Shown: piece after piece, positions 12,265 through 64,000 of the stretch
Position numbering within the stretch: the stretch's first letter is position 1
How the letters are laid out: each line of letters starts with the position of its first letter
Source: Basidiobolus meristosporus CBS 931.73
Lineage: Eukaryota > Basidiobolomycota > Basidiobolomycetes > Basidiobolales > Basidiobolaceae
Length of the DNA stretch: 64,000 bases
Direction of reading: 5' to 3'
NCBI GenBank assembly: GCA_002104905.1
Contig: MCFE01000254.1
Span: 49,552-113,551 of the forward strand
The notes under the pieces: generated by a model
Databases searched by the model: none
Seen by the model: only the letters and a program-made list of their open reading frames with translations
Told to the model about the DNA's origin: nothing
Program-made: the position numbers and the translations under genes

Positions 12265-15200
12265 ATTGACTCTGGAGCTTCTCAACACTTTACACACCAA
12301 AAAGAACTTTTTACCCAATATCAAGAAATTCCAATTTATAAGGTTTTCATGGGTGACAATAGAACACTTGATGCAGTGGGAGAAGGAACTATCCAAGTAA
12401 ACCTTAGAAGCAGTGAAGGAAGCCATACACTGACCTTTAAAGAAGTACTCTATGTACCAGAAATAGCCAAGAACCTACTATCTGTAAGCAAGGCCACTGC
12501 AGAAGGACTCAGTTTCAGTTTTGACAATTCTGGATGCAGGATCACTGATCAAAATGGTGCCCATATTGCTTTGGGCATCAGAGATCAGAATCTATACAAG
12601 TTGACCTATATTCCATCATATCTGGAAGCCAATATAAGTAACTTAAATGAAGAAAAACCAATGCTTTGGCATAGGAGATTTGGACACATCAATTTTGATT
12701 ACTTGCGTAAAATGATCAAAGATCAGCTAATTTCTGGAGTGAAAATTGATCCCCCAGCTAATTTGGAGCACTGTGAAGCCTGCATATATGGGAAACAAGC
12801 CAGACAACCGTTCAAGAGCTCTGGGTTAATCAAAACTAAGAAAAAATTAGATCTAATTCACTCAGATCTGTGTGGACCTATGCAAAATTTATCCTTAGGC
12901 AGGATGAAGTATTTAATCACTTTTATTGATGATTATACAAGATACACATGGGTCTACTTCATGGAGAGAAAGGAAGAAGCTCTGTCTAAGTTCAGGGAGT
13001 TTAAAGCCATGGTGAAGAGAGAAACTGGTGAAAAAATCAAGAAAATACCCTCTGACAATGGTGGAGAATATACCTCAAAACTCTTCATCCACTTCTGCAA
13101 AATTCATGGGATAAAGCAAGAGACTACTGTACCATACTTCCCACAACAAAATGGAGTAGCAGAACAGGCTAACAGATCAATAATTGATATGGCAAGATCT
13201 ATGATCCTTGATCAAAAATTATCCTATGATTTTTGGGAGGAATCGGTTGCCACTGCTGTATATCTTAAAAATAGGAGTTATAACAGAATACTTTGTGATT
13301 CTACTCCACTTGAAGCATGGTATGGATACAGACCAAGTGCAGAACATCTAAGAATATTTGGGTGTACAGCATATGCCAAAAAACTGGCCAGAAATCAGTC
13401 AAAATTTGAGCCAAACAGTGTAAAATGCATATTTTTGGGCTACTGCAATGAGATAAGGCATACAGACTCTACAATTCCAAAGCAAAGAAGCTGATCAAGT
13501 CCAGGGATGTGTTGTTTGATGAAAATTCAAAATTTTCACAAAAAATAACATAAGATGATGATGAAAATTTGATCTCAAGTCCACCAATTGTCAGGATTGA
13601 ATCAGAGCAAAACAATGAAGATTTTTTCACTCCAGAGGACTCTACAACTGTGGTTCAGCCAGAATCAGTGCCCAGGAATATCCCAGAAGTGATTGTTCCA
13701 GTATCAAATGCCTGGAGATCCAATCAGACAAGAAATAGCCCAAACTACTAAATCAATGAGGGTACAAACTTAGCCTATGCCTATTCAGTCCATATTGATG
13801 AACTCCAGACTGTAAAAGAGGCCCTAAATAGCCCTCAGACAAAGTTTTGGAGATCTGCAATGACTGAGGAATATCAGGCCCTGATGGAAAATCAAACTTG
13901 GGACTTAGTCAAATTACCAATCAACCAAAAATCAATTGGATGCAGATGGGTCTTCAAGACAAAATACAAGGCTGATGGTACAGTTGAAAGATACAAAGCA
14001 AGACTTGTAGCCAAAGGATACTCTCAAACAAAAGGACTTGACTATACTGAGACCTTTGCACCGGTAGCCAAGTTTAATTCCATCAGATTAATATTGGCTA
14101 TTGCAGCCAAATATAAGTTTTTTATTCATCAAATGGATGTAAAAACTGCATTCTTGAATGGAGAACTTGATGAGGACATGTATATGGACCAGCCTGATGG
14201 GTTTGTTTACCAAGATAAACCCCATTTGGTCTGCAAGCTTAAAAAGTCACTATATGGTCTCAAACAATCACCAAGAGCCTGGAATTGCAAGATAGATTCT
14301 TATTTGGAATCTTTGAGTTTCAAAAGAAGTAATGCTGACTATAGTATATACTATAAGTCAGATAGAGCAAATCCAGTTCTATTAGCTCTATATGTGGATG
14401 ATCTTGTTATAGCTGCCAATAACCTAGAAACATTGGAAGAGGCTAAATCCAGCCTATCTAAGGAGTTCAAGATGTCCAATCTAGGAGAACTTAGTTACTA
14501 CTTAGGGATTAAGTTCTCCATAGACAGAAGTACCCAGACTATCACCCTAAGCCAATCCAAGTATATCCAAGATATGCTAAAGAAGTACCAAATGGAAGAC
14601 TGTAAACCAGCAGCTACCCCAATGGAGACAAACCTTAACTTGGTCAAAGCTCAACCAAATCAAGAGAGCTTGGTGCCATCTGAAAGCCCTGACTTTCCTT
14701 ATCAATCTATGGTTGGCAGTCTGATGTATATCATGCTTGGAACACGTCCAGATATCTCATATTCAGTGGGAGTTGTCAGCCAACATAATCAGAACTATGG
14801 ATCTGATCATATTGCAGCAGTTAAGCAGATTTTTAGATACCTAAAAGGAACTGCTGATATCTGCTTAAGATACACTTATAAGGATTCAGAACAGGATCTT
14901 GTGGGATACTCTGATGCTGATTGGGGATGAAATTTAGAAGACAGAAGATCTACCACAGGATACACCTTTCTTTACTGTAAAGGAGCAATTTCATGGAATT
15001 CAAGAAAGCAACCAACCATAGCACTTTCCACCACAGAGGCAGAGTATATGGCAGCCTGTGAAGCTACAAAAGAAGCAATGTGGTTAAGAAAACTTTTTAC
15101 AGATTTAGGCCTATGTCAAAAAACGCCTATTACTTTATTTCAAGATAATCAAGGATGTATACAATTAGGTAGAAATCCAACTTTTCATGCTAGAACCAAG

Positions 15201-49053: not shown

Positions 49054-49479
49054 CTAATATATTCTGCTATAACTCCTATTTTTAAGGTATACAGCAGTGG
49101 CAACTGATTCCGCCCAAAAATCATAGGATGATTTTTGATCATGGATCATAGATCTTGCCATATCAATTATTGATCTGTTAGCTTGTTCTGCTACTCCATT
49201 TTGCTGTGGGGAGTATGCTACAGTAGTCTCTTGCTTTATCCCATGAATTTTGCAGAAGTGGATGAAGAGTTTTGAGGTATATTCTCCACCATTGTCAGAG
49301 TGTATTTTCTTGATTTTTTCACCAGTTTCTCTCTCCACCATGGCTTTGAACTGCCTGAACTTAGACAGAGCTTCTTCCTTTCTCTCCATGAAGTAGACCC
49401 ATGTGTATCTTGTATAATCATCAATGAAAGTGATCAAGTACTCATCCTGCCTAAGGATAAATTTTGCATAGGTCCACAC
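49054..49479 (-). pseudogene. copia integrase core fragment (element 4)
   Basis: Contains YLITFIDDYTRYTWVYFMER, IHSDNGGEYTSKLF (Asp) and GVAEQANRSIID (Glu). It is cut at VYLKNRSY by the internal junction near 49054, beyond which a displaced 95-bp protease-region piece abuts the LTR. Confidence 0.8.
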
Positions 49480-50948
49480 AGATCTGAGTGAATTAGATCT
49501 AATTTTATCTTAGTTTTGACTAACCCAGAGCTCTTGAACAGTTGTCTGGCTTGTTTCCCATATATGCAGGCTTCACAGTGCTCCAAATTAGCTGAGGGAT
49601 CAACTTTCACTCCAGAAATTAGCTGATCTCTGATCATTTTACACAAATAATCAAAATTGATGTGTCCAAATCTCCTGTGCCAAAGCATTGGTGTTTCTTC
49701 ATTTAAGTTACTTATATTGGTTTCCAAATATGATGGAATATAAGTCAACCTGTATAGATTCTGATCTCTGATGCCCAAAGCAATATGGGCACCATTTTGA
49801 TCAGTGATCCTGCATCCAGAATTGTCAAAACTGAAACTGAGTCCTTCTGCTGTGGCCTTGCTTACAGAGAGTAGATTGTTGGCTATTTCTGGTACATAAA
49901 GTACTTCTTCAAAGGTCAGTGTATGGCTTCCTTCACTGATTCTAAGGTTTACTTGGAGAGTTCCTTCTCCCACTGCATCAAGTGTTCTATTGTCACCCAT
50001 GAAAACCTTCTTAATTGGAATTTCTTGATAGTGGGTAAAAAGTTCTTTTTGGTGTGTAAAGTGTTGAGATGCTCCAGAGTCAATGTACCACGTCTGAGAA
50101 TCCTTGTTTGTGGTTGTATTTAGTGCAGATATGAATAGTCTATCTTCAGTTGTTGCAGCATTTCCATATTCAGGCTTCTTTTGCTGATTATCTTTCTTTT
50201 TAACACACCGGTCTGATGTGTGTCCTTTCCTTTTGCAGTAGTTGCAAAATAGGTTGCTGTTGCCTTTGTAGGGTCTTAGGTACCTCCTTTGTTGGTTATG
50301 ATTGCTTATTAGAGCATTTTCTTCTTCCTTCTTATTGGCGCTTGATTTTCTTAATTCTTCACTCAGGAGCCTTCCATACACGTAATTTAAGGTCAAATCT
50401 TCAGTTCTGGACTCTAGGGCTGATACAAGGCCCTGAAACTTGTCTGTCAGGCCATTCAGGATGGTGACTATCACATCCTCATCAGTAGTTGGTACACCCA
50501 CAGATTCCATCTCATCTACCAGCAGGGTAATTCTGTTAATTAGATTTTTCATTTCTTCTCCTGGTAGCATCTTTGTAGTAAGGAATTTTTGTCTCAGATA
50601 CATCTTCTTGGCAGCTGAACATGGCTGGTAGGTGTCTTCTAATGCTTTCCAGGCATTCTTTGCAGTTTTTGCTCTTGAGCATTGAATTAACAATTTGTCC
50701 TTGACATTAAGGCAAATGCAGTTAAAGGCACTTTGTTCTTTCTTCTGGTACTTTAAGGCTTCCTCTCCCACGTTTTTAGTAGGGCATTCTTCTCCCGTGA
50801 CAATATCCCAAAGGCCTCTTTCTTGTAGCAGCATCTTCATCTTCACCTTCCACACTTGGTAGTTAGATCCATCCAACTTTTCAGCAGAGGGAAAAATTCC
50901 AGTAATAGCAGTAGTAGACATTGCAGAGAGTGACAGCTTGGGGCTCAT
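49434..50948 (-). CDS. copia Gag-protease-preintegrase, uninterrupted 504-codon frame (element 4)
   Basis: The longest intact copia frame in the window. It begins MSPKLSLSAMSTTAITGIFP, five codons or fewer from the LTR end. Gag (NYQVWKVKMKMLLQERGLWD, SALESRTEDLTLNYVYGRLL), CCHC knuckle CNYCKRKGHTSDRC, protease DSGASQHFTH, then HHCC region WHRRFGHINFDYLCK and EHCEACIYGKQARQLF. It ends at the start of the integrase core (HSDLCGPMQNLS) through a frameshift at about 49440; the integrase continues in another frame (49054-49479) with HSDNGGEYT and NGVAEQANRS. Gag and protease could still be made; pol could not, as RT is missing. Confidence 0.8.
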   Translation of the reverse strand: MSPKLSLSAMSTTAITGIFPSAEKLDGSNYQVWKVKMKMLLQERGLWDIVTGEECPTKNVGEEALKYQKKEQSAFNCICLNVKDKLLIQCSRAKTAKNAWKALEDTYQPCSAAKKMYLRQKFLTTKMLPGEEMKNLINRITLLVDEMESVGVPTTDEDVIVTILNGLTDKFQGLVSALESRTEDLTLNYVYGRLLSEELRKSSANKKEEENALISNHNQQRRYLRPYKGNSNLFCNYCKRKGHTSDRCVKKKDNQQKKPEYGNAATTEDRLFISALNTTTNKDSQTWYIDSGASQHFTHQKELFTHYQEIPIKKVFMGDNRTLDAVGEGTLQVNLRISEGSHTLTFEEVLYVPEIANNLLSVSKATAEGLSFSFDNSGCRITDQNGAHIALGIRDQNLYRLTYIPSYLETNISNLNEETPMLWHRRFGHINFDYLCKMIRDQLISGVKVDPSANLEHCEACIYGKQARQLFKSSGLVKTKIKLDLIHSDLCGPMQNLSLGRMST

Positions 50949-50984
50949 AACCTGTTGTAAGAGTCTTGGAGATATTGAAGATCC

Positions 50985-51404
50985 ACCACAGGATACACCT
51001 TTCTTTACTGTAAAGGAGCAATATCATGGAATTCAAGAAAGCAACCAACCATAGCACTTTCTACTACAGAGGCAGAGTATATGACAGCCTGTGAAGCTAC
51101 AAAAGAAGCAATATGGTTAAGAAAACTCTTTACAGACTTAGGCCTATGTCAAAAAATGCCTATTACTTTATTTCAAGATAATCAAGGATGTATACAATCA
51201 GGTGGAAATTTAACTTTTCACACCAGAACTAAGCATATAGGTATTAGATATCATTTCATACATGAAGCTATAGAGAATAGCTTAGCTGACTTAGTTAACA
51301 GTCCTACAGATGAAATGATTGCAGACATATTTACTAAACCAATAGCCGGAGACAAAATTAAATATCACAGGTCACAATTAGGACTAGTCAGTATGAACAT
51401 TTAG
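50985..51404 (+). pseudogene. copia RNase H fragment (element 4)
   Basis: Plus strand: STTGYTFLYCKGAISWNSRK, then MTACEATKEAIWLRKLFTDL, ITLFQDNQGCIQ and the tail DEMIADIFTKPIAGDKIKYH. The copia RNase H end is preserved but lacks everything upstream. Confidence 0.8.
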
Positions 51405-51415
51405 ATGAGTGGAAG

Positions 51416-51762
51416 TGTTGTAGAAGTTTGTAATTCCACCTAAACATTCATCTAACTTAGTCACTTGGATCATTCCTACAAATCTTGGATAACATTGACC
51501 AAATTCCTTGTTGGGATTTACTTAGAATATTTTCATCAAAATATCAGCTACCCAGAACATGAAAATTCAATAAAGTGCTCAAACAGCCCCAAACTATGCA
51601 CACATGTTCTTGGGACCTTTTTATACCTATTCTACATGTTTTTTATGCCAAGACCTTGCAAAAGTATAAATACTACTTTTACTTTCAATCAATCATTAAG
51701 TGAAACCACATAATCTGCTTGTTCTCCCAATCACTTCCAATATCTCCAGGACTCTTAGAGCA
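51416..51762 (+). repeat. Right LTR of element 4
   Basis: TGTTGTAGAAG to CTTAGAGCA, 347 bp, preceded by a purine tract (GATGAGTGGAAG). It is more diverged from the left LTR than expected for one young insertion, and has the long indel form. Confidence 0.85.
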
Positions 51763-52987
51763 GAGAGGTGGAATGGCAGCTAGGGATGAGAATCAGTGGA
51801 CTGTCAGAGCACCATATAAGAAAAGTCATGTATGCATCTGACAAGCATTAGACAACCATTGAGCTATTGTCAGAAGGCTGTTGAGTTTTATAGCATATAT
51901 GGAAAGAGCCTGTATGCACTAAGAGCTTATGATACCACTATAGTGCTGTTGAACAAACAGCATTGCAGCATTTGAGTACTATATGAATGCAATATAACAT
52001 AGTATCAAAGGCATATCATAGATTAAAAGCAGAGTAAGTGTCAAATTTTCATCTGACAATTGTTGCAGCACTGTCAAATGACTGTTGGATTATCCATCAT
52101 GTATTGAGATAGATGCAGCAGCATTAAAGATACAAAATACTGTCAGAATTCCATTGTAATTTTGGCAGGGTAGAGTTGAAATAAAGGTTTATTATCTGAT
52201 ATCAATGTCCACCAAATTGCAAAATGTAGGCTGTTGAAATTGTGGTGGAGTACTGTAGGGAATCCAAAATGCAGTTTCTCTGACAGGATTTTGGCAGGAA
52301 TTAGCCATGTTAATCCAGATCTAAGCTAACTTTGTCCCAGTAATTTTTGCTAGGGTATTGTGCTACAACATGCAATAATATATCGAATTTAGCCTAAATT
52401 TTATTCTCATAAATATGAGTTCTTGGGAATTTTTAAGTAATCCTGGTGCCACTACTGCTTTCCTAATACAACACTGGAGCAAATATCTGCAAAAACTGTG
52501 GAGTGGGTACACCTATTGCCATTAGGGAGTGTCTAGTAGGACTGCCTGCTACCACAAGTCTTCTACAGCTTTTAGATTACACCCAGTCATTTATGATACT
52601 ACCAGCATTAGAAGTGTCTGTTGCAATGTTAAGTATTTTACCCAATAACTCCTATATTATGAATTGGTACTTTGTTATTTATCATAGTAGTAATTATTAG
52701 CTTGGAAATTAGTTTTCAAGATACTTGCTAATTCTCAGAAATGGTTAAAGTCCTGATTTATATCAGAATTTTCAGATTTGCACACAAAGTCCTGGGACCT
52801 TTCTCCAAACAATCTTATTATTACTTTTACCAACTTCTGCAATAGGTATAAATACTCTGTTGCTACTCAATAAAATAACAAGTGAATGTGACAAAAAGCA
52901 TATATTTCTCCAAATTACTTCAATACTCCCCAAGTCAACTTGTAACAGTGTCTTCACTCAGATTCAGGTTAGTGAGGATCATTTATA
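51763..52987. other. AT-rich repeat-derived DNA with a second LTR-like end
   Basis: No coding sequence recognised. Around 52760-52948 there is a copia-LTR-like 3' half: a TATAAATACTC box (about 52848), a following ACTCAATAAAATAACAAGTG and an end TTGTAACA. It resembles the main LTR in layout but not in sequence, so it may be from another copia family. Confidence 0.4.
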
Positions 52988-53145
52988 ATTTATAGTTTAG
53001 ATTTTTGAAGAGATACAGTACTCTCTAAGAGATATAGAGGCAGGTCATACATTGAAAAAGGCTGCAGTTGCAAAAGGTGGTGAGAATATTGTCCAGTATG
53101 AGGTATATGGACATCCAGACACCACCAAAGTGAGAGCTTGATGTC
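52988..53145 (+). pseudogene. Relic of a second Harbinger-type transposase
   Basis: In shifting frames the plus strand still reads FLKRYSTL, YRGRSYIEKG and AKVVRILSSMRYMD-like words, which line up with FGYLKRFSILAGKYRGKSYI and IVKILINAQYVHTRRHP of the transposase at 11196-12081. Only the last 50 residues are visible. Confidence 0.5.
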
Positions 53146-53219
53146 ATTGTATGAAGAATGATGGATTTGAAGAAATAAGTAGGGTATCAGTGTTACAGTA
53201 TGCAACAGGGTTAAATTGC

Positions 53220-53569
53220 TGTTAGAGTCTTGGAGATATTGGAGGTGATTTGGAGAACAAGTAAAATGTGTGATTTTCACTTGGTGATCTATTGAATGTA
53301 AAAGCAGTATTTATACTTTTACATGGTCTTGGAATAACAAGCATGTAGAATACGTTTAGGAAGGTCCCAAGAATATGTGTGCAAGGTTTGTGGCTGTTTG
53401 GACACCTTATCAGATTTTCATGTATGGTTATGGGTAGCTGATATTTTGATGAAAATATTCCAAGTAAAACCCAACAATGAATATGGTCAGTATTCTCCAA
53501 GATTTGTAGACAATGATCTAAGTGACTAAGTTAGGTGAATATTTAAGTGGAATTACGAATCTTACAACA
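53220..53569 (-). repeat. Solo copia LTR
   Basis: 350 bp, minus orientation (plus strand TGTTAGAGTC to CTTACAACA), with no element interior on either side. No matching 5-bp flanks (ATTGC / TAAAT). Product of LTR-LTR recombination. Confidence 0.85.
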
Positions 53570-54591
53570 TAAATACCCTGAAGGGCAAACAGCCAAACAT
53601 GTCAGCATGTACCTTAATGCAATTAAACGTTCCAGAACACAGTACAATTGGCATGATTCAACAGAACAAGTCGTTGACAACGATTAATACTTGTACAGAT
53701 TCTTGGCAAGTAAACTCATAGAATATGTTTAGAAGGGTACTAATAGCATTTATCCAAAGTGTGGTTCTTTTAAACAGCTTTGAGAAATTTCATATTCTGG
53801 GTACCTGCCATCTTGGTGAAAATATTGCAAGTAAATCCTGACAGTAAAATTTGGTCAGGAGGTGGTAAGTTCATAGACTACTGTTTGAGTAGCGAAGTTA
53901 GTAGGATAACTAGGTGTAGTTTGATTATTATATCAGATCGATGTAGTGGCAACAAACGGGCCAGCATATTATCAGATATTTCAACGCATGATGAAAAACT
54001 TGCCAATGCCTCATTCGAGTCGTTTGTCCTATCATCATCGAAAGCCATGGTCCAATCAAAACGTCTAAACCGTGGTCCTAGATCAGGGTTTTAAAGAAAC
54101 TTCCAATATGGTTTACAATTGGTAACAGTGGCACAAGCCATCCGAGTGATTGCCCATTTGAGAAGGCATTCGAGCGATTACTCCTTTTTAGCTTACACAG
54201 AAAACCAAGAAAGCATGCAGGAGGCTGGGTCATAGATAAGAACATGCGTTACATAGCAAGTAATGCTGGTAATGACGGGCCCTACTTTAGCAGGTGTCTT
54301 AGGTTCTTTCAGGGCAAGTCACTTCTGAAAGGGCCAATCTGAGCGTATGCACGAACCAAGAAATGCACTCAGATTGGTGTAAATGGAGCCAATAAGACAA
54401 TAATGGAAAGCGGATGATATATGTAGGGCAGGCCAAGGAAACAGCCAATGATGGCTTTCAACGCGACCACTGCTAGGTTTGTTGAGGCTCTTCACACCAT
54501 ATAGTGCAAGGCCGTGATGGCAGATAGCAATGTCTGTGGTGCGATCTGATATAAATAACTTGAAACTACCTCGTGCTCAACCGTCGCAAGC
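53570..54591. other. Spacer with degraded LTR piece, promoter of secreted-protein gene
   Basis: At about 53700-53858 a minus-oriented piece of the main copia LTR is recognisable (CTTGGCAAG..GGGTACCTG..CAAGTAAATCCTGACAG). The rest up to 54591 has no gene. GATATAAATAAC near 54548 is a likely TATA box, about 45 bp before the start codon. Confidence 0.55.
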
Positions 54592-55833
54592 ATGTATTTT
54601 CCCCTACTATTTCTGTTATACCTTTACTTGGCGCAAGCGGTCGATATAGAATTGACCTTTCATAACTATAATTGGCCCTACCTCGATGCCAAGTCCCTCT
54701 ATAGCAGCGTGATAGTTCCAGAAGGATATGCGCCTGAAACATCTTATTGGGGTGTTTATATGTGGTCATTTGGCTACTTCGGCATTCAGAATATGAATGG
54801 GTCTGTCAACTACATTATGTCAATTTGGAACGACGGTAACAAAACGGCCCGAGTAGATCTTGGGCTTCTCAGAGGTGAGCCTTCTGATTGCGAGAATGCA
54901 ACCGGTTGCATTGAAGGAGCAGTTGCCCATGATCTCGTCTACTCAGAGCCCTGGAAACCGGGTGTACCGTATAACTTCATGCTTGATTGCGAAGGCGACG
55001 GGAAAACTAGGAAATTGTCAAGCTACATTTTTAAGAATGACCATTGGATATTGATTACTCAGTTTGTCCTCCCCGGTTACAACGAATGTTACTCCCCTCC
55101 GTTCTTTCAATTTTTGGAGAATCCGGCGTGGAATAGCGGTTCCTGGCCGCTGGAAAAATCTGCATCCCGCCACCAAAGGAGAGGGATTTATTACAACCAA
55201 TACATGAAACAAGTCGGCTCTGACGAGTGGCTTCCGGGCACCCAGGCTACTCCTTCTTTTAACCCGCCGGGCGATAAACCACATGACGAGTTTTACGAAG
55301 TACTTCCATGGCCAGAGCGGAATGGAGTCATGTTGGTTTCGGATGGGGCCAAGCCCGGAACGGAGGTCCCTAATCCGTATTCTGTTGTCAATTTCAACAT
55401 TTCGAAAATGGAGCCGCCAATTCCTTTGGATTATACACCCAAAGGTAAGCACACTGTGACAAGGGCCGAGACTTATATGTCCTACCAAGTGATCACCGAG
55501 TCGCCGGTAACGACCACTATCACGCACCAGAGATGGGCCACCAACTTGCAAACCGCAAAAGAATTCACCTTAACGGAGACTGAACTAACAACTGCAACCA
55601 GTACTGTCAAGACTAGTGCCACTGAAACCCAGACATATACAGTAACTCTTCCTACCTATGTGGTGACTGAGCTGACTGATGAGACCCAAGTGGTGACCGA
55701 GGTGCATACCGCAATTATATCCGTCAAGCCACGCACCTCTACAGATATTAAGGTAGATGAAAGTACAGTTACCATATATGAGACTCAAGAGTCCACCGTA
55801 TATGCTCCCGCAGTTACAGTTTATAGAGAATAG
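54592..55833 (+). CDS. Secreted/cell-surface protein, DUF3472-like head and Thr-rich tail
   Basis: 413 residues, single exon. An N-terminal signal peptide is evident: MYFPLLFLLYLYLAQAVD, cleavage likely after AQA. Residues 20-210 are Trp/Tyr/Gly-rich with YWGVYMWSFGYFGIQNM, YIMSIWNDGNKTARVDLG, GCIEGAVAHDLVYSEPWKPG and HWILITQFVLPG, which recalls secreted DUF3472-type carbohydrate-associated domains; this is a resemblance, not a firm match. N-glycosylation sequons occur (NGSV, NKTA, NATG). The C-terminal 130 residues are Thr/Val-rich (TVTLPTYVVTELTDETQVVT), like O-glycosylated stalks of fungal wall proteins, but no GPI-anchor signal or transmembrane helix is seen at the end. It is the most telomere-proximal host gene. 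Function unknown. Confidence 0.75.
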   Translation: MYFPLLFLLYLYLAQAVDIELTFHNYNWPYLDAKSLYSSVIVPEGYAPETSYWGVYMWSFGYFGIQNMNGSVNYIMSIWNDGNKTARVDLGLLRGEPSDCENATGCIEGAVAHDLVYSEPWKPGVPYNFMLDCEGDGKTRKLSSYIFKNDHWILITQFVLPGYNECYSPPFFQFLENPAWNSGSWPLEKSASRHQRRGIYYNQYMKQVGSDEWLPGTQATPSFNPPGDKPHDEFYEVLPWPERNGVMLVSDGAKPGTEVPNPYSVVNFNISKMEPPIPLDYTPKGKHTVTRAETYMSYQVITESPVTTTITHQRWATNLQTAKEFTLTETELTTATSTVKTSATETQTYTVTLPTYVVTELTDETQVVTEVHTAIISVKPRTSTDIKVDESTVTIYETQESTVYAPAVTVYRE

Positions 55834-55860
55834 CAAGTATAGAGCTGGAAGAGTCGTTTC

Positions 55861-55945
55861 ACAAGTAGAGATGAGTGTCTTTCATAGATTTTGATAAACA
55901 AGTAGAGATGAGTTTCTCTCTTTCATAGATTTCGATAAACAAGTA
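55861..55945 (+). repeat. Two-copy tandem repeat, 37-41 bp
   Basis: ACAAGTAGAGATGAGTGTCT with ttcatagattttgataa is followed by a second copy with a 4-bp CTCT insertion. It lies just downstream of the secreted-protein gene. Confidence 0.85.
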
Positions 55946-56489
55946 TCAGGATTTGATAAGTTACCATGTGATTGATTTTCTCTTCAATCATAGTAAGCAT
56001 CATGATATTAATGTACATGTATCAGTACCCAAGCAATTTATTGACAAGTGGGGTTGGATGACGTCGACTACCACGGAATGTGTCCTTTGGCTAGGGTTAA
56101 GGTTGGGTTTGAATAAATAGAAAGACTTGATGGATGCTGAACCCAATCCACACTCTCTCTATCGAACTTGGCCACGTATCTCCAAAATGGGGAAAATACC
56201 AAATATAGATCAAGCCAAATACGTTAGTTGAAGAGTTGGCTAAATTCCTCCAGATTGCATGATTAGAAGGGCAAAAAAACGTCAGCCACCAGATGAATTA
56301 TATTTTAGTGCACATATATAATTACGAAGGAACAAGTATGTACCAGGTTTGGGTAATCCGGATAATTGGCCTGTGCCAGGTTTGGGTAATCTTGATTGAT
56401 GGTATTGAGCAGATTTATTGCGCTCAAAAAACACCGTGGTTTGCTCAACCAAAATTCAGGGCCTACCATAATGCTCAATCTGACAAATA

Positions 56490-56587
56490 TCCGGTGGATG
56501 TGCCCAAATACTAACAAATACGGTGCCTCCAGTGGATGTGCCCAAATACTAACAAAATGCGGTGCCTCCAGTGGATGTGCCAAATAC
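56490..56587 (+). repeat. Tandem repeat, about 38 bp, 2.6 copies
   Basis: TCCAGTGGATGTGCCCAAAT with actaacaaaatgcggtgcc repeated, the last copy partial. A separate 33-bp direct repeat with core CCAGGTTTGGGTAATC lies at about 56342-56393. Confidence 0.85.
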
Positions 56588-56748
56588 GTTCTTTGAGTTA
56601 CCCCAGAAGTGAGCAGTAGTCACAGCCCATGTAGAAAAACCCCAGCTGGCCCAAAAGAAACCAGTTGCTTCTTTTTAGAATATTGATCTCGTTTATATAT
56701 ATATATACAGGTGAAATCTTTATTTCAGTTGAAACAAAGAAGCCAGCA

Positions 56749-59517
56749 CTAGTGTTGTAGCTTTGATACAAGAATGTGTAGCTGAGGGGAATTTGTAGGT
56801 AAGTTAATAAGAAGTGAAGACAGTTCTTCAGTGCTCAAGACACTGTTCAGTGGGATGGGGGGTAGCAAGAGAGGTAAGAATGACTTGTGAACAACATTAA
56901 TGAGGGGAATGTGATAAGGATTGATATTCATCATAAAGGGAGTGTGCTGCTGCAGATATTGCTGCCAAAGGTCTGTCAAGTACTTCAGGTAGGCCAGCTT
57001 GGGTTTTTCTGACTGCAGAATAAATTGAGCAAATATCTTGACTTCAGGATCTCCAAGTATAGTTCTCCAGCAGAAGCCAGGTGTTGTGTGGTGTGTTCTC
57101 TTCCATGCCTTAATAAGTGGGTTATTGCAGTGGTGAAGCCTGATATATAATCTGGTTCTGAGGTAGAGAAGTCTGATCTTATAGGGCATAAACCCAAAAG
57201 CACCAAGAATAGCATGTCTGTAGGGGCATTCAGGCAAATGAGGCACCAAGGAGGTAATGCACCATACTGCAAACTTGTCATGCTTAGTGCAGTCTCTAGA
57301 AGTAAGAGAGAGAAGTGGTAAGCCAAATTCCAGGACAGGGAAGACAAACTGCTTGAGTAGAAGGAGGCAGCTGGGAGCTGAGGTTGTAGGAGGAGTAACA
57401 GCCAGTAGCTTGTGGAGTGCCTGTCTTGCCAGGATGATTCTCTTCTTCAGGTGTGCTCCAGAGTCTAGTCCAGTAGGAAGGAAAGGAAAGCCAAGATATG
57501 TAGCAGAAACCTGAGCTGGTAGAGTGGAGTTCTCCAAGTTGATGGGGCAGCCCAAAGGTACTGTCTTTGCAATGGAAAGCTGGAGATTATTCTTCTGCAG
57601 ATACTGATGGATGGTCTGAGAGTCTTGTTGCACACTGGAGGAGGATATTCTGATGTCATCAGCAAAGAGAGTAACCAGGCAGTCAGCTGAGAGTCTTGGG
57701 AAATCATTCAGGAAGATGGCAAACAGTATAGGACCAAGCACGGAGCCTTGAACCACTCCATTAGGAACTGAGAACACAGCTGATTGCTCACTTGGGTGCA
57801 GAATTCTTGCTTGTGGATCCAGAAACAGAGACCTGACAAGGAGGGTGAGAGAGGTACTGGAGAAGCATTGCAACTTGGACCAAAGCAGATTTCTGTCAAC
57901 TGAATCAAAGGCCTTGGTAATATCAAACAGAACAGAGGGATACTTGCACTGGAGAGAGTGATCTTGGCTAAGTATGACTGCATATTCCAAGGAGAGGCCA
58001 GGAACAAAGCCAAACTGTGCAGGGTGAAACTTGAGGGAGTCAGAGTAGAGCTCCTGAGCAAGCAGAAGCTCAAACACCTTTCTGCAGGTGGGCAGCAGAG
58101 ATATTGGCCTGTAGGAGCTAGGATCCAGGTGCTTTCCTTTACCTTTGTACAGTGGCAGAACATTTGCAAAGGACCATTCCTCAGGAGTAGAAAGCTGGGC
58201 TGAGTATTGCTGAAACAGTGGAAGCAGAAGTGCAGACATGGCCTTGGTACTAATCTTCAGAAGCTCATAAGAGATTGTGTCCACACCTGGAGCAGTAGAG
58301 TTGGGAAGCCTCTTGAGCACATTATGGATTCTCCTTTGATCAAGTGCAAGTGGAATGGGCAGAGTCTTGAAGTCAGGATGAAAGTCAGGAGTTGAGTACT
58401 GCTTTATAGAGAAGAAGATGTTAGCCAGCTGTTCTGTTGAAGGTAACTTCCTGGAAGAGGGCCTCATTGCCCTGTAGAGTCTTGATACTGTTCTTGTTAT
58501 AGAGTTGGAAGATTGCAGAGGCAAAGAACTCATAATATGATCCCAGAGCTGAGTATGCAGAGTGTGGTGAATTGCCTTGGAGTGGTGTATGGCTGTCAGG
58601 AGGAGTTTCTCTCTTTTTGGGTTAGGGAAACTCAGGTAGCTTTGTTGCAGGGCTGAAACAATGGATTCCCATTTTCTTGAGGTAACAGCAGTAGTCTTGC
58701 ATGGCAGTGAGAGGGAGGCAGACACCAGAATCAGATGCTTCACAAAGAGCCAGGCATAGTTGAGATCATCAGGCAGAGAAAGTAGCAAACTGGCAAGCTT
58801 CAAGTAGTTCCCAAAGTCTTTCTTCTGATTCTTGGTAGCTTTGTGGGTGAGCACAGTAAGTTTTGGCAGCTTCTTCTTCACAACTGGTTGCATAGAAAGG
58901 GACCAGTCTGGGTGGTCAGAGGCTCTCAAGGATCCTAGCTCAGCTCCAGAGAATTGCTTAACTTCATTCACAAAGTAGAGGGCAGCAGCAGAAGGGCAGA
59001 TCCAGTCAACACATCTTTTCTCAGATTGAGCACCTAGTGCTAGCAGATGGCTTTCTCTCAGGAAGTTCAGTAGGAATGTAGACCTTGGCTTCATTCTTGC
59101 AGTCAGAGTAGTCTTGTTCTCAGGATGGGGAATGTTGAGATCTCCAAGCAAGATAATAGGTGTTGATATAGATTGCTGGTATTGCTGAACTTTCTGGCAT
59201 ATAACTTGCACTTCCTGAAGGGCAAGACTTGGAGGCGGATAGCAGAGCACCAGACTGATAGTTGGCAACTGGAGAGCAGCACAGTAAGGGGAGTAAAGAG
59301 GAACACAGAGCTGAGGAGTATTGATGGTAGAAGAGATAAAGCAGATAGAGGAGGTATTCTTTGTTCTAGGAGTAGAAAAGCAATATAGATTAGTCAAAAG
59401 TATAGAGGGTAGCTGGACATCAATCAAACACAGGAGGGAAAATCTTGAAAGAAGTCTCTCTAAAGTTGGTCTTGATGGCTGTATGCTGTTGCAGTTAAGC
59501 AACAGAACTTCAGGTAG
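56749..59517 (-). CDS. LINE-1T ORF2: APE endonuclease-reverse transcriptase
   Basis: 922 codons open from just after a TGA at 59518-59520. Endonuclease: LLLNCNSIQPSRPT, LVLCYPPPSLA, ILLGDLNIPHPENKT, VDWICPS and RASDHPDWSL, giving the Asn, Asp-Asn and Ser-Asp-His positions. The expected Gln-Glu-Thr near residue 30 reads VQLPS, so the catalytic Glu seems missing. Reverse transcriptase: LPLYKGKGKHLDPSSYRPIS, FDITKAFDSVDRNLLW, NGVVQGSVLGPILFAIFLND, LFADDIRISS (FADD) and AKTVPLGCP. The tail (ILGDPEVKIFAQFILQSEKP) has no RNase H and no clear zinc knuckle. No ATG precedes the endonuclease motifs; the first in-frame Met lies about 140 residues in, so translation must come from ORF1 readthrough or reinitiation. 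Confidence 0.88.
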   Translation of the reverse strand, partial: LPEVLLLNCNSIQPSRPTLERLLSRFSLLCLIDVQLPSILLTNLYCFSTPRTKNTSSICFISSTINTPQLCVPLYSPYCAALQLPTISLVLCYPPPSLALQEVQVICQKVQQYQQSISTPIILLGDLNIPHPENKTTLTARMKPRSTFLLNFLRESHLLALGAQSEKRCVDWICPSAAALYFVNEVKQFSGAELGSLRASDHPDWSLSMQPVVKKKLPKLTVLTHKATKNQKKDFGNYLKLASLLLSLPDDLNYAWLFVKHLILVSASLSLPCKTTAVTSRKWESIVSALQQSYLSFPNPKREKLLLTAIHHSKAIHHTLHTQLWDHIMSSLPLQSSNSITRTVSRLYRAMRPSSRKLPSTEQLANIFFSIKQYSTPDFHPDFKTLPIPLALDQRRIHNVLKRLPNSTAPGVDTISYELLKISTKAMSALLLPLFQQYSAQLSTPEEWSFANVLPLYKGKGKHLDPSSYRPISLLPTCRKVFELLLAQELYSDSLKFHPAQFGFVPGLSLEYAVILSQDHSLQCKYPSVLFDITKAFDSVDRNLLWSKLQCFSSTSLTLLVRSLFLDPQARILHPSEQSAVFSVPNGVVQGSVLGPILFAIFLNDFPRLSADCLVTLFADDIRISSSSVQQDSQTIHQYLQKNNLQLSIAKTVPLGCPINLENSTLPAQVSATYLGFPFLPTGLDSGAHLKKRIILARQALHKLLAVTPPTTSAPSCLLLLKQFVFPVLEFGLPLLSLTSRDCTKHDKFAVWCITSLVPHLPECPYRHAILGAFGFMPYKIRLLYLRTRLYIRLHHCNNPLIKAWKRTHHTTPGFCWRTILGDPEVKIFAQFILQSEKPKLAYLKYLTDLWQQYLQQHTPFMMNINPYHIPLINVVHKSFLPLLLPPIPLNSVLSTEELSSLLINLPTNSPQLHILVSKLQH

Positions 59518-59520
59518 TCA
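59515..59520 (-). promoter_or_regulatory. Candidate stop-codon readthrough site UGA CUA
   Basis: The minus strand reads TCT GCC TGA CTA CCT GAA. UGA followed by CUA is a well-known efficient readthrough context (alphaviruses and some mammalian mRNAs). Both sides are open in the same frame over hundreds of codons. Confidence 0.6.
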
Positions 59521-60610
59521 GGCAGAGGTTGTAGCTTCTTCAGAGGCAGCATTGACAATGTGACCTGCAGAGTCCCAGAGCTCTTCAAATGGTGCATCAC
59601 TTAAGTCAGCAAGGAGGGAAATGGCATGATTCTTGAGGAAGTATGCCACATCATAGGAGGGGGCTTGTCTCTTGATGGCAGCAAAGAATGACAGAATGGC
59701 AACATGGGCTGGAGGCTTGTTGAACAGTAGAGAGTCAGAGGATTCAGATTCTTCAGGCACTATCTTGAAGTCAGTTTTCAGCCAGTTAAGGTTCTTCTCC
59801 ACAAAGGCAACAAATGAGTCAGCAATGTTTTGGTCTAGGATAAACTCCAGAATCTTCCCTTTTCTCCAGGCCAGGTTGACAATTCTTGAGAGCTGAATAT
59901 TGCATGCCTTGAGTGCTTTCCTGATGTTGGAAATGGGAGTCCAGGGAACTTGCTTCAAGTACACCACAGTCCAGGTAGAAGCTGGTGGTAGGTTTGCTGG
60001 GGGCTTGTAAGTCCTTCTGTGTTGCAATGGAGCTGCAGTAGTCAGATTGGAGTCCACATTCTCAGTAGAGGGTTTTCTTGATGTGTTTTGCTGAATGGTA
60101 CTGGAGCTGGATGTGCTGATAATTCTTGCTAGAACCTTGCCTGCATAAGTCTGAGGAATAGCTGAGGTGACTGTAGAGGTGGTGGCAGCTGGTGGAGGTG
60201 GAGAGGCAGAAACTGAAGCAGGAACTGAGGTCACCTGGGAGAAGGCAGTAGAAGCAGGTTTTCTGGGAGGAACAGAGTTCACTATCCAGTTGTTCTGTAA
60301 AACACTGGAGTAGCTTTTCTGTGGAACAGGATCTTGCTCTTGAACAGGAACAGAAGCAGGAGGCTGGGGCTGAGCAGTAGTGGTAAGGCAGTGGCACTCC
60401 AAGGAAGCTTTTTGCAAGGCATCTCTGGCAGTTTTCAGGGCAGTATTGGCTTCATTCTTGAGCTTCTTGCATTGAGCATCCAGTCTCTTGTTTTCAATAG
60501 CCAGGGCAGTATTGGCAGCCTCTAAATCAGCAATTTTCTTCTCAATTGTAAGGAATCTCTGAAGAAATGCATCAGTAGAAGTGCTGGCATCTGGGAGAGC
60601 AGTTGCAGGA
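59518..60610 (-). CDS. LINE-1T ORF1, 5'-truncated
   Basis: Open in one frame from the telomere junction to TGA at 59518-59520. The N-terminal part is a coiled coil (ASTSTDAFLQRFLTIEKKIA, LDAQCKKLKNEANTALKTAR). The middle is Pro/Ser/Thr-rich (SPPPPAATTSTV) with QTYAGKVLARI. The C-terminal 150 residues look folded: WTVVYLKQVPWTPISNIRKA, ILEFILDQNIADSFVAFVEK, EELWDSAGHIVNAASEEATT. This is the size and plan of LINE ORF1 proteins (RNA-binding chaperones), although I see no CCHC knuckle. No ATG is available upstream; the frame runs into CCCTAA repeats as Asn-Pro codons, so the original start was lost when the element was capped. Confidence 0.75.
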
Positions 60611-60627
60611 GGGTTAGGGTTAGGGTT
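60611..60627 (+). repeat. Internal telomere block 1
   Basis: GGGTTAGGGTTAGGGTT between LINE-1T copy A and LINE-2T; almost three repeats. Confidence 0.95.
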
Positions 60628-61568
60628 CTAGTGCTTTATTGGGATAATGAGTATTGTAATGGAACATACACACTAAAGGAGCCAATACTAGCTGATGTGA
60701 AGCCTGTGTAAGCAAGAGGGATAGCTGGGAGTGTTCAGAGTGTGAAAATTATGTCAAAGTGGTTTGAACATGAAAGGGATAAGGTAATCTCATAGTAGCT
60801 GGTAATCATTTGTGTTAGTGGTACAGATATTTCAAGGCAGAAGCTCAGGTCTAATTGCAGCTATTATGCAATTTAATCTTCTGACCAAAGCTCTCTGAGT
60901 ATGAAACTGGAAGAGTGCATCAGTATCCTTGAATTCAAAGCATCTTTCAGCATGAGTATAGTAGAAGGGCTGCTTGCAGATTGGGCACTTGGAGCCCAGA
61001 CATATGGTATTCATCCTCCATCTTATAGCCTGGAGGGAATAGAAGGTGCTCTTCAGGTACAATGACACATCAGCACCACTATGTGTGTGTCTACTGTCTT
61101 TTCTGATAAGCCTAATTCTATCCCTTGATGTAGTAACTTGTGATATATTCTGAAGTCTCCTTTGATGCATTGCAACCCAAAGGGGAATCTGTCCACCAGG
61201 AGGTGCACTGCTGTTGGCTAGTACATATTGTTCGTAGCCAGCTGGGCAATGTACTCCTTTTTTGATTAAAGAGTTTGGAGTAGTGTCTATTCTTCTTCCT
61301 ACAATGGCATCTACCAAAGCCCTCAATGGGTTGTCAGGGCTAGACTTTGCAAAGTGCTGGCCAAACCTGATACTTAAAGTCTCAAATCTCTGGGATACTG
61401 ATTCAATGCCAGTCAAGCTTTGAATCAATCTATGGTACTGTTTAGTATGATACAGAAAAGAACTTACTACCCAGCCTAAGCTTTCCCTTTGTATTAGTTC
61501 AATTCTGTGCAAGATATCAGGACTGAGAGTGAAGTGCATCATTGGGGCAGAGTACTCCCAGCAAGATC
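60628..61568 (-). mobile_element. LINE-2T copy, 5'-truncated (second telomeric LINE family)
   Basis: Minus strand. It holds the C-terminal part of a different LINE ORF2 (60832-61620) plus a 3' UTR of about 200 bp ending AATAAAGCACTAG next to CCCTAA repeats. It is cut at its 5' side by TTAGGGTTAGGG (61569). No nucleotide similarity to LINE-1T was seen beyond the AATAAAG near the 3' end. Confidence 0.75.
60832..61568 (-). pseudogene. LINE-2T ORF2 C-terminal fragment
   Basis: Reads through LRSCWEYSAPMMHFTLSPDI, ESLGWVVSSFLYHTKQYHRL, MHQRRLQNISQVTTSRDRIR and a zinc-binding-like CPICKQPFYYTHAERC (C-x2-C-x7-H-x3-C) near the C-terminus. The last is typical of LINE tails after RT. The palm motifs are upstream and missing. 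The frame continues a little into the telomere block and copy C, which is accidental. Confidence 0.7.
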
Positions 61569-61580
61569 TTAGGGTTAGGG
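61569..61580 (+). repeat. Internal telomere block 2
   Basis: TTAGGGTTAGGG followed by extra G residues at the junction with LINE-1T copy C. Confidence 0.95.
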
Positions 61581-62077
61581 GGGGGAGACAGTCACCAAGA
61601 GGTGAAATCTTTATTTCAGTTGAAACAAAGAAGCCCGCGCTACTGTTGTAGCTTTGATACAAGAGTGTGTAGCTGAGGGGAATTTGTAGGTAAGTTAATA
61701 AGAAGTGATGATAGTTCTTCAGTGCTCAAGACACTGTTCAGTGGGAAGGGGGGTAGCAAGAGAGGTAAGAATGACTTGTGAACAACATTAATGAGGGGAA
61801 TGTGATAAGGATTGATATTCATCATAAAGGGAGTGTGCTGCAGCAGATATTGCTGCCAAAGGTCTGTCAAGTACTTCAGGTAGGCCAGCTTGGGTTTTTC
61901 TGACTGCAGAATATAGTGAGCAAACTTCTTGACTTCAGGATCTCCAAGTATAGTTCTCCAGCAGAAGTCAGGTGTTGTGTGGTGTGTTCTCTTCCAGGCC
62001 TTAATCAGTGGGTTGTTGCAGTTGTGAAGTCTGAGGTATAATCTGGTTCTAAGGTAGAGAAGTCTGATCTTATAGGG
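61581..62077 (-). mobile_element. LINE-1T copy C, 5'-truncated
   Basis: 3' end intact (..TTTCACCTCTTGGTGACTGTC). It matches copy A closely for about 480 bp, covering the last 140 codons of ORF2. It is cut at 62077 where an LTR-like sequence starts. Confidence 0.92.
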
Positions 62078-62695
62078 TGTTGTATCCAAGAGAAAGTGTA
62101 ATAAAACTCTTGAATGGTTTAACTGAACCAAAGGGACAATTAAGTGCAGAATCTTAGAATTGTCAGAGAGTGGCGGAAATATTAGCAGAAAGATTCTGAT
62201 CTAATATTGGTCTTGGAAATAGCTGGGTTGGCTATAAAGGCAATGATATTTGTTTGCTAGGCAGGCTAGGCTTGGTGTTCTTTGGAGTGCTAGATATACT
62301 AGGCTTGGATAGAAACTAGAACGGAATTGTTGGATTCTTATTTTTGCTGAGACAGAATCTTGATTTTGTTGAGACACACACTAAACCAAAAGGTTCAGTA
62401 CACTTTATTTATACTTTTCTGATCAAGTTGAATTAGTAAGTGCCAAGAGACTGGATTGATGGAAATCAATTTGGGTGTTCATAGGTGCATAGGATAAATG
62501 AAAATTACATCATCAATCAACTGATGTCTTGGAAGCTGCACAGTGGTTGGATAGATCTCAGATGACTAATCACCTGGGAAGGCTTGGCAGATAGGTTGAT
62601 AACGTGATGACCATTTGAAAATAGATCAGGTGTGATAGCTAAAAATAGATTCTGAGGTGGGATCAAATAAACTGTAACTGGGATTTGTTATGTTT
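62078..62695 (-). repeat. LTR-like element D within the telomeric stack
   Basis: The left end is TGTTGTATCCAAG; read on the minus strand it ends GGATACAACA. In minus sense it has AAAAGTATAAATAAAG (about 62406-62421) as a TATA/transition region and a plausible R-U5 after it. The far (U3) end has no TG and meets GGGTTAGGG at 62696, so it may be truncated. Probably a solo LTR of another copia family that landed in, or beside, LINE copy C. Confidence 0.5.
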
Positions 62696-62724
62696 GGGTT
62701 AGGGAAAATCAGTTAGGGTTAGGG
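62696..62724 (+). repeat. Internal telomere block 3 (interrupted)
   Basis: GGGTTAGGG, then AAAATCAG, then TTAGGGTTAGGG. Confidence 0.9.
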
Positions 62725-62835
62725 GGGAGACAGTCACCAACAGGTGAAATCTTTATTTCAGTTGAAACAAAGAAGCCAGCGCTACTGTTGTAGCTTTGAT
62801 ACAAGAGTGTGTAGCTGAGGGGAATTTGTAGGTAA
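62725..62835 (-). mobile_element. LINE-1T copy E, 3' end only
   Basis: About 110 bp of LINE-1T 3' end (hairpin loop TGTT), capped at the ORF2 end by GGGTTAGGG. Confidence 0.92.
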
Positions 62836-62844
62836 GGGTTAGGG
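62836..62844 (+). repeat. Internal telomere block 4
   Basis: GGGTTAGGG between LINE copy E and SINE copy F. Confidence 0.9.
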
Positions 62845-63286
62845 GGAGGAAAGTCACCAAGTGGTGAAATCTTTATTTACTTATGACAAGTATCTAAAGA
62901 AGCCAAGTTAATCTGAAGTAGTTCCTAGTTAGCTAGGTCTGAGAGAGGTTTCCTGGAAAGCCAGGCCTGAGAAGTGAGAATCTGAATAAATCTGAGCTAA
63001 GTTATACTGGTTTGCGGTAGCTGAATTGTGGCCGGAATGGCCAGTAGACTGGGGGAACTGAGATGAATTTCTGGGCAATCACTGGCCAAATTCACTAGGC
63101 AAATCTGGCCAATTAGCATTTCAAGGATTTCAGCCAATCAGAGCCTTTGCTTTGCCCGATGGTTGATCAAGCCATCTCCCAATGAGCACACATCAATTTA
63201 TTGATCAAATTTTGCTGGATCCTGGATTTGAACCCACAACCATGGGTATGGAAGGGTTAGGGATAACCACAAGGCTAAGTGTTCTT
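62845..63286 (-). mobile_element. Telomeric tRNA-derived SINE, copy F (probably full length)
   Basis: 442 bp, minus strand. The 5' head (63286 leftwards) has a pol III promoter: A box TTAGCCTTGTGG (63267-63278) and B box GGTTCAAATCC (63224-63234), 33 bp apart, as in a tRNA. The body has no coding frame. The tail, AAATAAAGATTTCACC with actt and GGTGACTTTCC, closely resembles the 3' end of LINE-1T (AAATAAAGATTTCACC, tgtt, GGTGACTGTC), so it can be expected to use the LINE's reverse transcriptase. The 3' end joins CCCTAA repeats (62836-62844) and the 5' end is followed by GGTTAGGG. Confidence 0.78.
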
Positions 63287-63294
63287 GGTTAGGG
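63287..63294 (+). repeat. Internal telomere block 5
   Basis: GGTTAGGG between SINE copies F and G. Confidence 0.85.
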
Positions 63295-63432
63295 GAGGAA
63301 AGTCACCAAGTGGTGAAATCTTTATTTACTTATGACAAGTATCTAAAGAAGCCAAGTTAATCTGAAGTTATTTCTAGAAAGCTAGGTCTGAGAGATATCT
63401 TCCTGGTAAGCCAGGTCTAAGAGTTGAGAGGC
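63295..63432 (-). mobile_element. Telomeric SINE copy G, 5'-truncated
   Basis: 138 bp matching the 3' part of copy F with several differences (for example AGTTATTTCTAGAAAGC against AGTAGTTCCTAGTTAGC). It ends at TTAGGG (63433). Confidence 0.88.
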
Positions 63433-63438
63433 TTAGGG
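63433..63438 (+). repeat. Internal telomere block 6
   Basis: One TTAGGG unit plus extra G residues at the junction of SINE copy G and LINE-1T copy H. Confidence 0.85.
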
Positions 63439-63762
63439 GGGAGACAGTCACCAACAGGTGAAATCTTTATTTCAGTTGAAACAAAGAAGCCAGCGCTACT
63501 GTTGTAGCTTTGATACAAGAGTGTGTAGCTGAGGGGAATTTGTAGGTAAGTTAATAAGAAGTGATGATAGTTCTTCAGTGCTCAAGACACTGTTCAGTGG
63601 GAAGGGGGGTAGCAAGAGAGGTAAGAATGACTTGTGAACAACATTAATGAGGGGAATGTGATAAGGATTGATATTCATCATAAAGGGAGTGTGCTGCAGC
63701 AGATATTGCTGCCAAAGGTCTGTCAAGTACTTCAGGTAGGCCAGCTTGGGTTTTTCTGACTG
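63439..63762 (-). mobile_element. LINE-1T copy H, 5'-truncated, terminal
   Basis: 324 bp, nearly identical to copy C and E where they overlap. It breaks off within ORF2 (..TTTTTCTGACTG) and is capped by the terminal telomere. Most recent event in the stack. Confidence 0.93.
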
Positions 63763-64000
63763 GGTTTAGGGTTAGGGTTAGGGTTAGGGTTAGGGTTAGG
63801 GTTAGGGTTAGGGTTAGGGTTAGGGTTAGGGTTAGGGTTAGGGTTAGGGTTAGGGTTAGGGTTAGGGTTAGGGTTAGGGTTAGGGTTAGGGTTAGGGTTA
63901 GGGTTAGGGTTAGGGTTAGGGTTAGGGTTAGGGTTAGGGTTAGGGTTAGGGTTAGGGTTAGGGTTAGGGTTAGGGTTAGGGTTAGGGTTAGGGTTAGGGT
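63763..64000 (+). repeat. Telomere, (TTAGGG)n
   Basis: About 39 repeats, reaching the window edge without interruption; the first unit is GGTTTAGGG (one extra T). G-rich strand points outward, as at a right chromosome end. Confidence 0.98.

Follow-up and report, generated by a model that had tools for sequence, protein, structure and literature searches.

The window analysed here is a stretch of 64,000 nucleotides (nt) from the fungus Basidiobolus meristosporus CBS 931.73, and our subject is a stack of non-long-terminal-repeat (non-LTR) retrotransposon pieces at 56707..63762, next to a telomere. On its right side the window reaches the end of contig C485 (113551 bases), where it closes with an array of 39 perfect TTAGGG repeats (63766..64000, + strand). 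TTAGGGTTAGGG matched the window 41 times (expected, 0.00), and 38 of these matches fall inside the terminal array. We found all seven of the non-LTR pieces that the initial annotation had described, each in the same orientation with its 5' end outward. From the tip inward they are H, G, F, E, C, LINE-2T and A. A, C, E and H form one family of long interspersed nuclear elements (LINEs), LINE-1T; over 300 nt, C and H match A at 97-98% identity. F and G form a family resembling short interspersed nuclear elements (SINEs), and LINE-2T is a separate element.

The innermost piece, element A (LINE-1T; 56707..60608, - strand), lacks the last ~17 nt of its 3' end, where it adjoins AT-rich TATATATA, and is 5'-truncated within open reading frame 1 (ORF1). 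Its ORF2 (56749..59517, -) has 922 amino acids and no internal stop, with the first Met at residue 142, and encodes an apurinic/apyrimidinic endonuclease (APE)-type domain followed by a reverse transcriptase (RT). The ORF1 (59518..60612, -), cut at its 5' side, lies in the same frame and ends with TGA, then CTA. An interstitial TTAGGG tract (60609..60627, +) caps A and joins the 3' end of LINE-2T, of which the 3' part is present (60628..61568, -); visual inspection showed a C-terminal Cys/His motif in it. A TTAGGGTTAGGGGGGGG tract (61569..61585, +) stands at the 3' end of C (61586..62078, -), a 5'-truncated LINE-1T that continues into the unrelated repeat D (62079-62711). Repeat D is perhaps a solo LTR. 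Next come a TTAGGG tract (62712..62727, +) and, joined to it by its 3' end, the LINE-1T piece E (62728..62835, -). Truncation at the 5' side has left about 108 nt of E, and GGGTTAGGG comes next. A GGGTTAGGGGG tract (62836..62846, +) separates E from the SINE-like F (62847..63286, -), whose 5' end matches that of complete copies and whose 3' tail is common with LINE-1T. Beyond a GGTTAGGGG tract (63287..63295, +) lies the 5'-truncated SINE-like G (63296..63432, -), and beyond a TTAGGGGGG tract (63433..63441, +) the outermost LINE-1T piece H (63442..63762, -), again 5'-truncated. Six of the seven 3' ends thus abut TTAGGG directly on the centromeric side, with A as the exception, and six of the seven 5' sides abut TTAGGG, with C as the exception; both of these features had been claimed from the first inspection of the sequence.

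We searched the genome (89.0 Mb, 1311 contigs) for the same elements. The exact 16-base 3' end of LINE-1T was present in 731 copies (676 forward, 55 reverse), and 564 of them (529 forward, 35 reverse) had TTAGGGG before them, separated by no more than 8 bases. Among 100 listed LINE-1T 3' ends, all 36 on contigs longer than 50 kb lay no farther than 18.3 kb from the contig end toward which their 5' side points, many of the contig sizes behind these distances being interpolated from 63 known ones. The LINE-2T-type ends behaved alike: of 27 listed, all 22 on contigs longer than 25 kb lay within 12 kb of an end, including five reverse copies at left ends. Another set of genome matches (n = 44) held 28 with an exact contig size above 30 kb, and 27 of these were no more than 10 kb from an end, the exception being internal, on contig C558. 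After identical contexts had been merged and L002-L009, L022, L059, L076 and L077 excluded as duplicates or unrelated, 62 of 66 loci yielded 3' junctions, of which there were 133 different ones in five types. The junctions were on the + strand only in 55 loci and on the - strand only in 7, and no locus was mixed. Repeat D occurred both ways in the same loci (9 matches in the same orientation, 7 opposite). Moreover, ten of ten chromosome ends chosen by telomere repeat alone carried these elements within 4 kb. The stacks of retrotransposons at telomere ends are therefore confirmed across the genome. The orientation and placement expected by the initial annotation, with 3' ends inward at chromosome ends, held for the listed copies save for at least two internal inverted stacks. 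Telomere 24-mers were nearly confined to the + strand of the contigs (7428 versus 81), an odd bias in contig orientation.

We then examined the 133 junctions. TTAGGG stood immediately before the G-run (or TT) of the element at 106 of them and within 30 nt at 120; the other 13 had none within 30 nt. The inner tracts were short, with a median of 11 and a maximum of 36 nt under a chain rule, or a median of 8 and a maximum of 25 nt by strict periodicity. The same chain rule was applied to the arrays at the very end of the contig, which measured 94-248 nt in the 14 loci that extend that far. Tracts at the outermost junctions (21 loci) were likewise short (0-23 nt, strict count). Where a tract held a complete periodic repeat, it started in phase TTAGGG in 50 of 107 cases (expected fraction, 0.167), and 25 of the 27 LINE-2T-type ends had complete in-phase TTAGGG, mostly two or more repeats. 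No run of five or more T, the mark of a poly(A) tail, was seen within the 25 nt immediately preceding the element at any of the 133 junctions. The exact last 15 nt of LINE-1T were intact in 88 of 100 listed copies, and some of the other 12 differ by one base only. A double G-run (GGTTAGGGGGGGGGAGGGGGGGGGAGACAG) was present at two LINE-1T 3' junctions on contig C512 (L031, about 1485; L045, about 404), which suggests slippage during initiation.

The 5' ends of LINE-1T were scattered. Truncation points in forward-strand loci lay 21-3264 nt from the 3' end of reference copies at 34 junctions, a set obtained from 38 LINE-1T rows by removing two repeats and two rows that lay where the reference copies themselves end on the 5' side, with 18 SINE rows left unused. 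At 22 of the 29 junctions among these without filler, the element overlapped the telomere repeat by at least 1 nt, a modest excess over the expected fraction of 0.477.

The 3' ends of LINE-1T, the SINE-like element and two further elements, S2 and L4, have in common a TTTCACC..GGTGA region followed by a C-run (RNA sense). The C-run comprises 0-10 C, counting those of the repeat, and mostly 4-9. Compared with shuffled sequences, hairpin folding of the tail gave z values of -2.99 for LINE-1T and -2.70 for L4, and was weak for the SINE-like element (-1.00) and S2 (-1.69). The LINE-2T tail differs from that of LINE-1T, and 17 nt of it recur in S3. This element measures about 630 nt, to which tandem 5' repeats of 86 nt are added in varying number, each with the telomere-like motif GGTTAGGGGAGATTGTTAGGG. 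By this shared tail, S3 is a predicted non-autonomous partner of LINE-2T, and the other shared tails likewise identify the LINE and the SINE-like elements as putative partners. An example of S3 is found in L054 (1501-2450), with other copies in the loci of L049-L075, and its repeats adjoin the terminal array in L053, L054, L055, L057, L067 and L071. As to a tRNA-like head of the SINE-like element, visual inspection picked out a box-B-like GGTTCAAATCC, and ARAGORN detected no tRNA in either F or G. Rfam returned no match within 50000-64000.

Elsewhere in the window, a subtelomeric gene of 413 amino acids (54592-55833, +) has 62% identity to a B. meristosporus protein with Pfam PF11958 and 52% to one of B. 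ranarum. Among named fungal proteins, those of these two species gave the closest matches. ORFs at 12349-14930 and 49434-50948 resemble Copia-type gag-pol by eye.

In a further step, the proteins of LINE-1T were investigated. The RT of ORF2 matched RVT_1 (PF00078; E = 2.4e-25) and the RT of L1 ORF2p (E = 1.4e-12). The first 296 residues of ORF2 were modelled as an APE-type endonuclease with a predicted local distance difference test (pLDDT) score of 82, and their best structure matches were ExoA, APE1 and the L1 endonuclease (E about 1e-9 to 1e-10). Pfam gave only RVT_1 and APE-type matches, the latter below cut-off, and the motifs of a restriction-like endonuclease (REL), namely C..C..H..C, RHD/RHN and [RK][AP]D, were not found in ORF2. 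This agrees with the earlier view that ORF2 is APE-type, unlike the REL-type ORF of the MoTeR elements of Magnaporthe. At the position of the catalytic Glu in the TETW motif, LINE-1T and the relatives P0001 and P0002 have Asp, and the stretch bearing the PT motif is missing; D126, N128, D171, D201 and H202 are retained. The ratio of nonsynonymous to synonymous polymorphism (pN/pS) between copies, pooled over 55 non-independent loci, was 0.26 for the endonuclease, 0.15 for the RT and 0.41 for ORF1, and with each distinct variant counted once it was 0.23, 0.41 and 0.40, respectively. We considered from the change of Glu to Asp that the endonuclease might be dead, and rejected this reading because the other catalytic residues are conserved and pN/pS is 0.26. 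For the same reasons, and given the APE fold, the likeness to endonuclease-deficient telomeric elements that had been drawn at first did not hold.

ORF1 and ORF2 lie in one frame, split by a single TGA followed by CTA (window 59510-59525, -). Of 130 copies in total, 100 were listed, and every one of these kept the TGA under a pattern that allowed any codon at this position but required identical flanks and so favours young copies. TGA CTA is described as supporting readthrough in Ustilago and human cells (PMC4207609). ORF2 may be made by such readthrough; alternatively, it may arise by re-initiation without ATG. The genome also encodes a telomerase RNA-binding domain, on contig C880, as two pieces over cut-off; one of these has an in-frame TAG, perhaps within an intron.

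Placement, orientation, junctions, shared tails, short inner tracts and a telomerase domain in the genome were thus all directly observed. The order of TTAGGG and then the complement of the RNA 3' end shows that the G-rich strand primed the cDNA. We consider it probable, if only just, that telomere-specific LINEs of at least two lineages and their non-autonomous partners prime on this strand at nearly bare chromosome ends, which telomerase caps later. The G-rich strand, its 3' end pointing outward, would prime reverse transcription after the 3' tail of the RNA had annealed to the GGG or TT of TTAGGG, through the hairpin region and then the C-run in LINE-1T and its partners and through the AACCC tail in LINE-2T. 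Addition would take place mostly at ends that keep only 0-4 repeats, and would therefore work as terminal addition. Synthesis of cDNA would usually stop early, or the end would erode; telomerase would then cap the exposed end with a new array, and shortening would restart the cycle. The layered record of element addition followed by capping with telomere repeats, which the initial annotation had recognized, is supported by these data. A more specific form of the proposal, in which a community of APE-type LINEs with their passengers extends bare ends directly and the C-run or AACCC tail pairs with the G-rich overhang like a telomerase template, is tentative, and we lean against it.

The primer itself might be either an overhang or a nick. 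Orientation was rejected as a proof of overhang priming, since a nick in the G-rich strand gives the identical orientation. The main rival is accordingly target-primed reverse transcription in which a nick made by the APE-type endonuclease in the G-rich strand of an existing TTAGGG array starts the insertion and the distal array is kept, the short inner tracts then reflecting a preference for the inner edge or the loss of long tracts. Such a mechanism has been proposed for MoTeR, FoTeR and the insect elements. The APE fold, the catalytic residues intact save for Glu to Asp, purifying selection on the endonuclease, the near-constant phase of the junctions and the complete in-phase repeats at LINE-2T-type ends all speak for such a nick. 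However, if insertion were uniform along arrays of 94-248 nt, many of the inner tracts should be long, whereas the longest of the 133 is 36 nt and a minority of junctions have no TTAGGG nearby. Either the ends were nearly bare when they were extended, or long tracts have been removed. The very short inner tracts favor addition to nearly bare ends over random insertion, and we therefore regard insertion inside arrays as a real but doubtful possibility and prefer bare ends with later capping by telomerase, a reading on which the balance tips narrowly to the probable side. Of the overhang priming first proposed, priming by the G-rich strand stands on the orientation, and the short inner tracts point the same way; the distinction from a nick by the element's own endonuclease does not follow from orientation.

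Several points weigh against addition to bare ends. The LINE-1T endonuclease is maintained by purifying selection, with a pN/pS of 0.26, and so must have some function. The short inner tracts could be survivors of breakage, and interstitial tracts of about three or more repeats are described as breaking in Magnaporthe (PMC7367193). Outermost tracts were somewhat longer than inner ones (medians 12 versus 8, strict count; p = 0.019), although element families differ between the two groups; shrinkage with age would predict such a difference. Some stacks were copied between ends, L013 and L034 sharing three junctions. Finally, at least two stacks among the listed matches are internal and inverted, one of them head-to-tail near 97-99.5 kb of the 218-kb contig C558 (L033, L079) and the other at 56-61 kb of the 69.6-kb contig C726, with its 3' ends facing the nearer contig end (L078). 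Both retain CCCTAA at a 3' junction and therefore look like internalized stacks (fusion relics) or misjoins; relics of MoTeR within chromosomes have been described (PMC8381367).

A second alternative is that recombination or break-induced copying from one chromosome end to another spread most of the layers, with few true retrotranspositions. Indeed, 71 alignments between contigs cross at least one junction, and the segment with three junctions common to L013 and L034 extends over 3.3 kb at 98% identity. Some of the 71 alignments may, however, represent similar rather than copied junctions, and the widely scattered 34 LINE-1T 5' junctions, together with the 133 junction contexts that remained distinct after merging, make this explanation improbable. 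An assembly artefact or chance association, for which the strand bias of the telomere 24-mers and a possible misjoining of the two internal stacks might be cited, is very improbable given that a single rule applies across 62 loci, left contig ends included, and that ORF2 of element A is intact.

The HeT-A, TART and TAHRE elements of Drosophila are added terminally with the 3' end inward, are 5'-truncated at the tip and join by poly(A). Drosophila is not known to have a telomerase. The elements described here are similar in their inward 3' ends and 5' truncation, and differ in being capped by TTAGGG. In work attributed to Morrish in 2007, endonuclease-independent L1, an APE-type LINE, reportedly primes on dysfunctional mammalian telomeres, an experimental mutant situation; here, in contrast, the element is natural, its endonuclease is constrained and its 3' ends are precise. 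Unlike the endonuclease-deficient Athena elements of the Penelope-like element type, LINE-1T has an endonuclease fold by its structure model, and this domain is constrained. By clade, TRAS and SART belong to R1, and MoTeR and FoTeR to CRE. The TRAS and SART elements of Bombyx are also telomere-targeting LINEs whose ORF2 combines endonuclease and RT and which depend on their 3' untranslated region (PMC7265360, PMC4700185). SART1, however, is described as joining by poly(A), requiring at least three repeats and inserting inside arrays (PMC7265360, PMC4700185), whereas here poly(A) was absent and the element frequently followed a single repeat or no repeat at all.

Among fungi, MoTeR1 and MoTeR2 of Magnaporthe oryzae are similar in being telomere LINEs with the 5' end outward, arranged head-to-tail with TTAGGG tracts from half a repeat up, with a non-autonomous partner and internalized relics (PMC7367193, PMC8381367). 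They are described as having a SLACS/CRE-like RT, a REL endonuclease and tracts of up to more than 20 repeats (PMC7367193), whereas the system described here is APE-type, with two or more LINE lineages and several partners. FoTeR of Fusarium oxysporum likewise has its 5' end outward, occurs only at telomeres, is mostly truncated and is bordered by telomere repeats on both sides; it differs by its REL endonuclease, by typically 3-7 repeats on the 3' side, compared to mostly 0-4 here, and by 4-55 copies per genome, compared to 731 exact LINE-1T 3' ends (PMC12857005). For both MoTeR and FoTeR, a nick of the G-rich strand by their own endonuclease is presumed (PMC7367193, PMC12857005).

LINEs that lie at fungal telomeres with an outward 5' end are already known, and two of them, MoTeR and FoTeR, are REL-type. 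What is unusual here is an APE-type LINE in a MoTeR/FoTeR-like layout, accompanied at these ends by another LINE lineage and by partners that share the 3' tail of each LINE. For Basidiobolus and Zoopagomycota, the listings of one open-licence library revealed no description of elements of this kind. In B. meristosporus, the chromosome ends appear to be built by retrotransposons and telomerase in alternation. If this is true, retrotransposition and telomerase take turns at the same ends in a telomerase-bearing fungus, and the 3' tails suggest a way in which an RNA might be matched to a telomere end. With several hundred copies and a telomerase domain in one genome, the passage from telomerase-only to retrotransposon-assisted chromosome ends becomes testable in a fungus.

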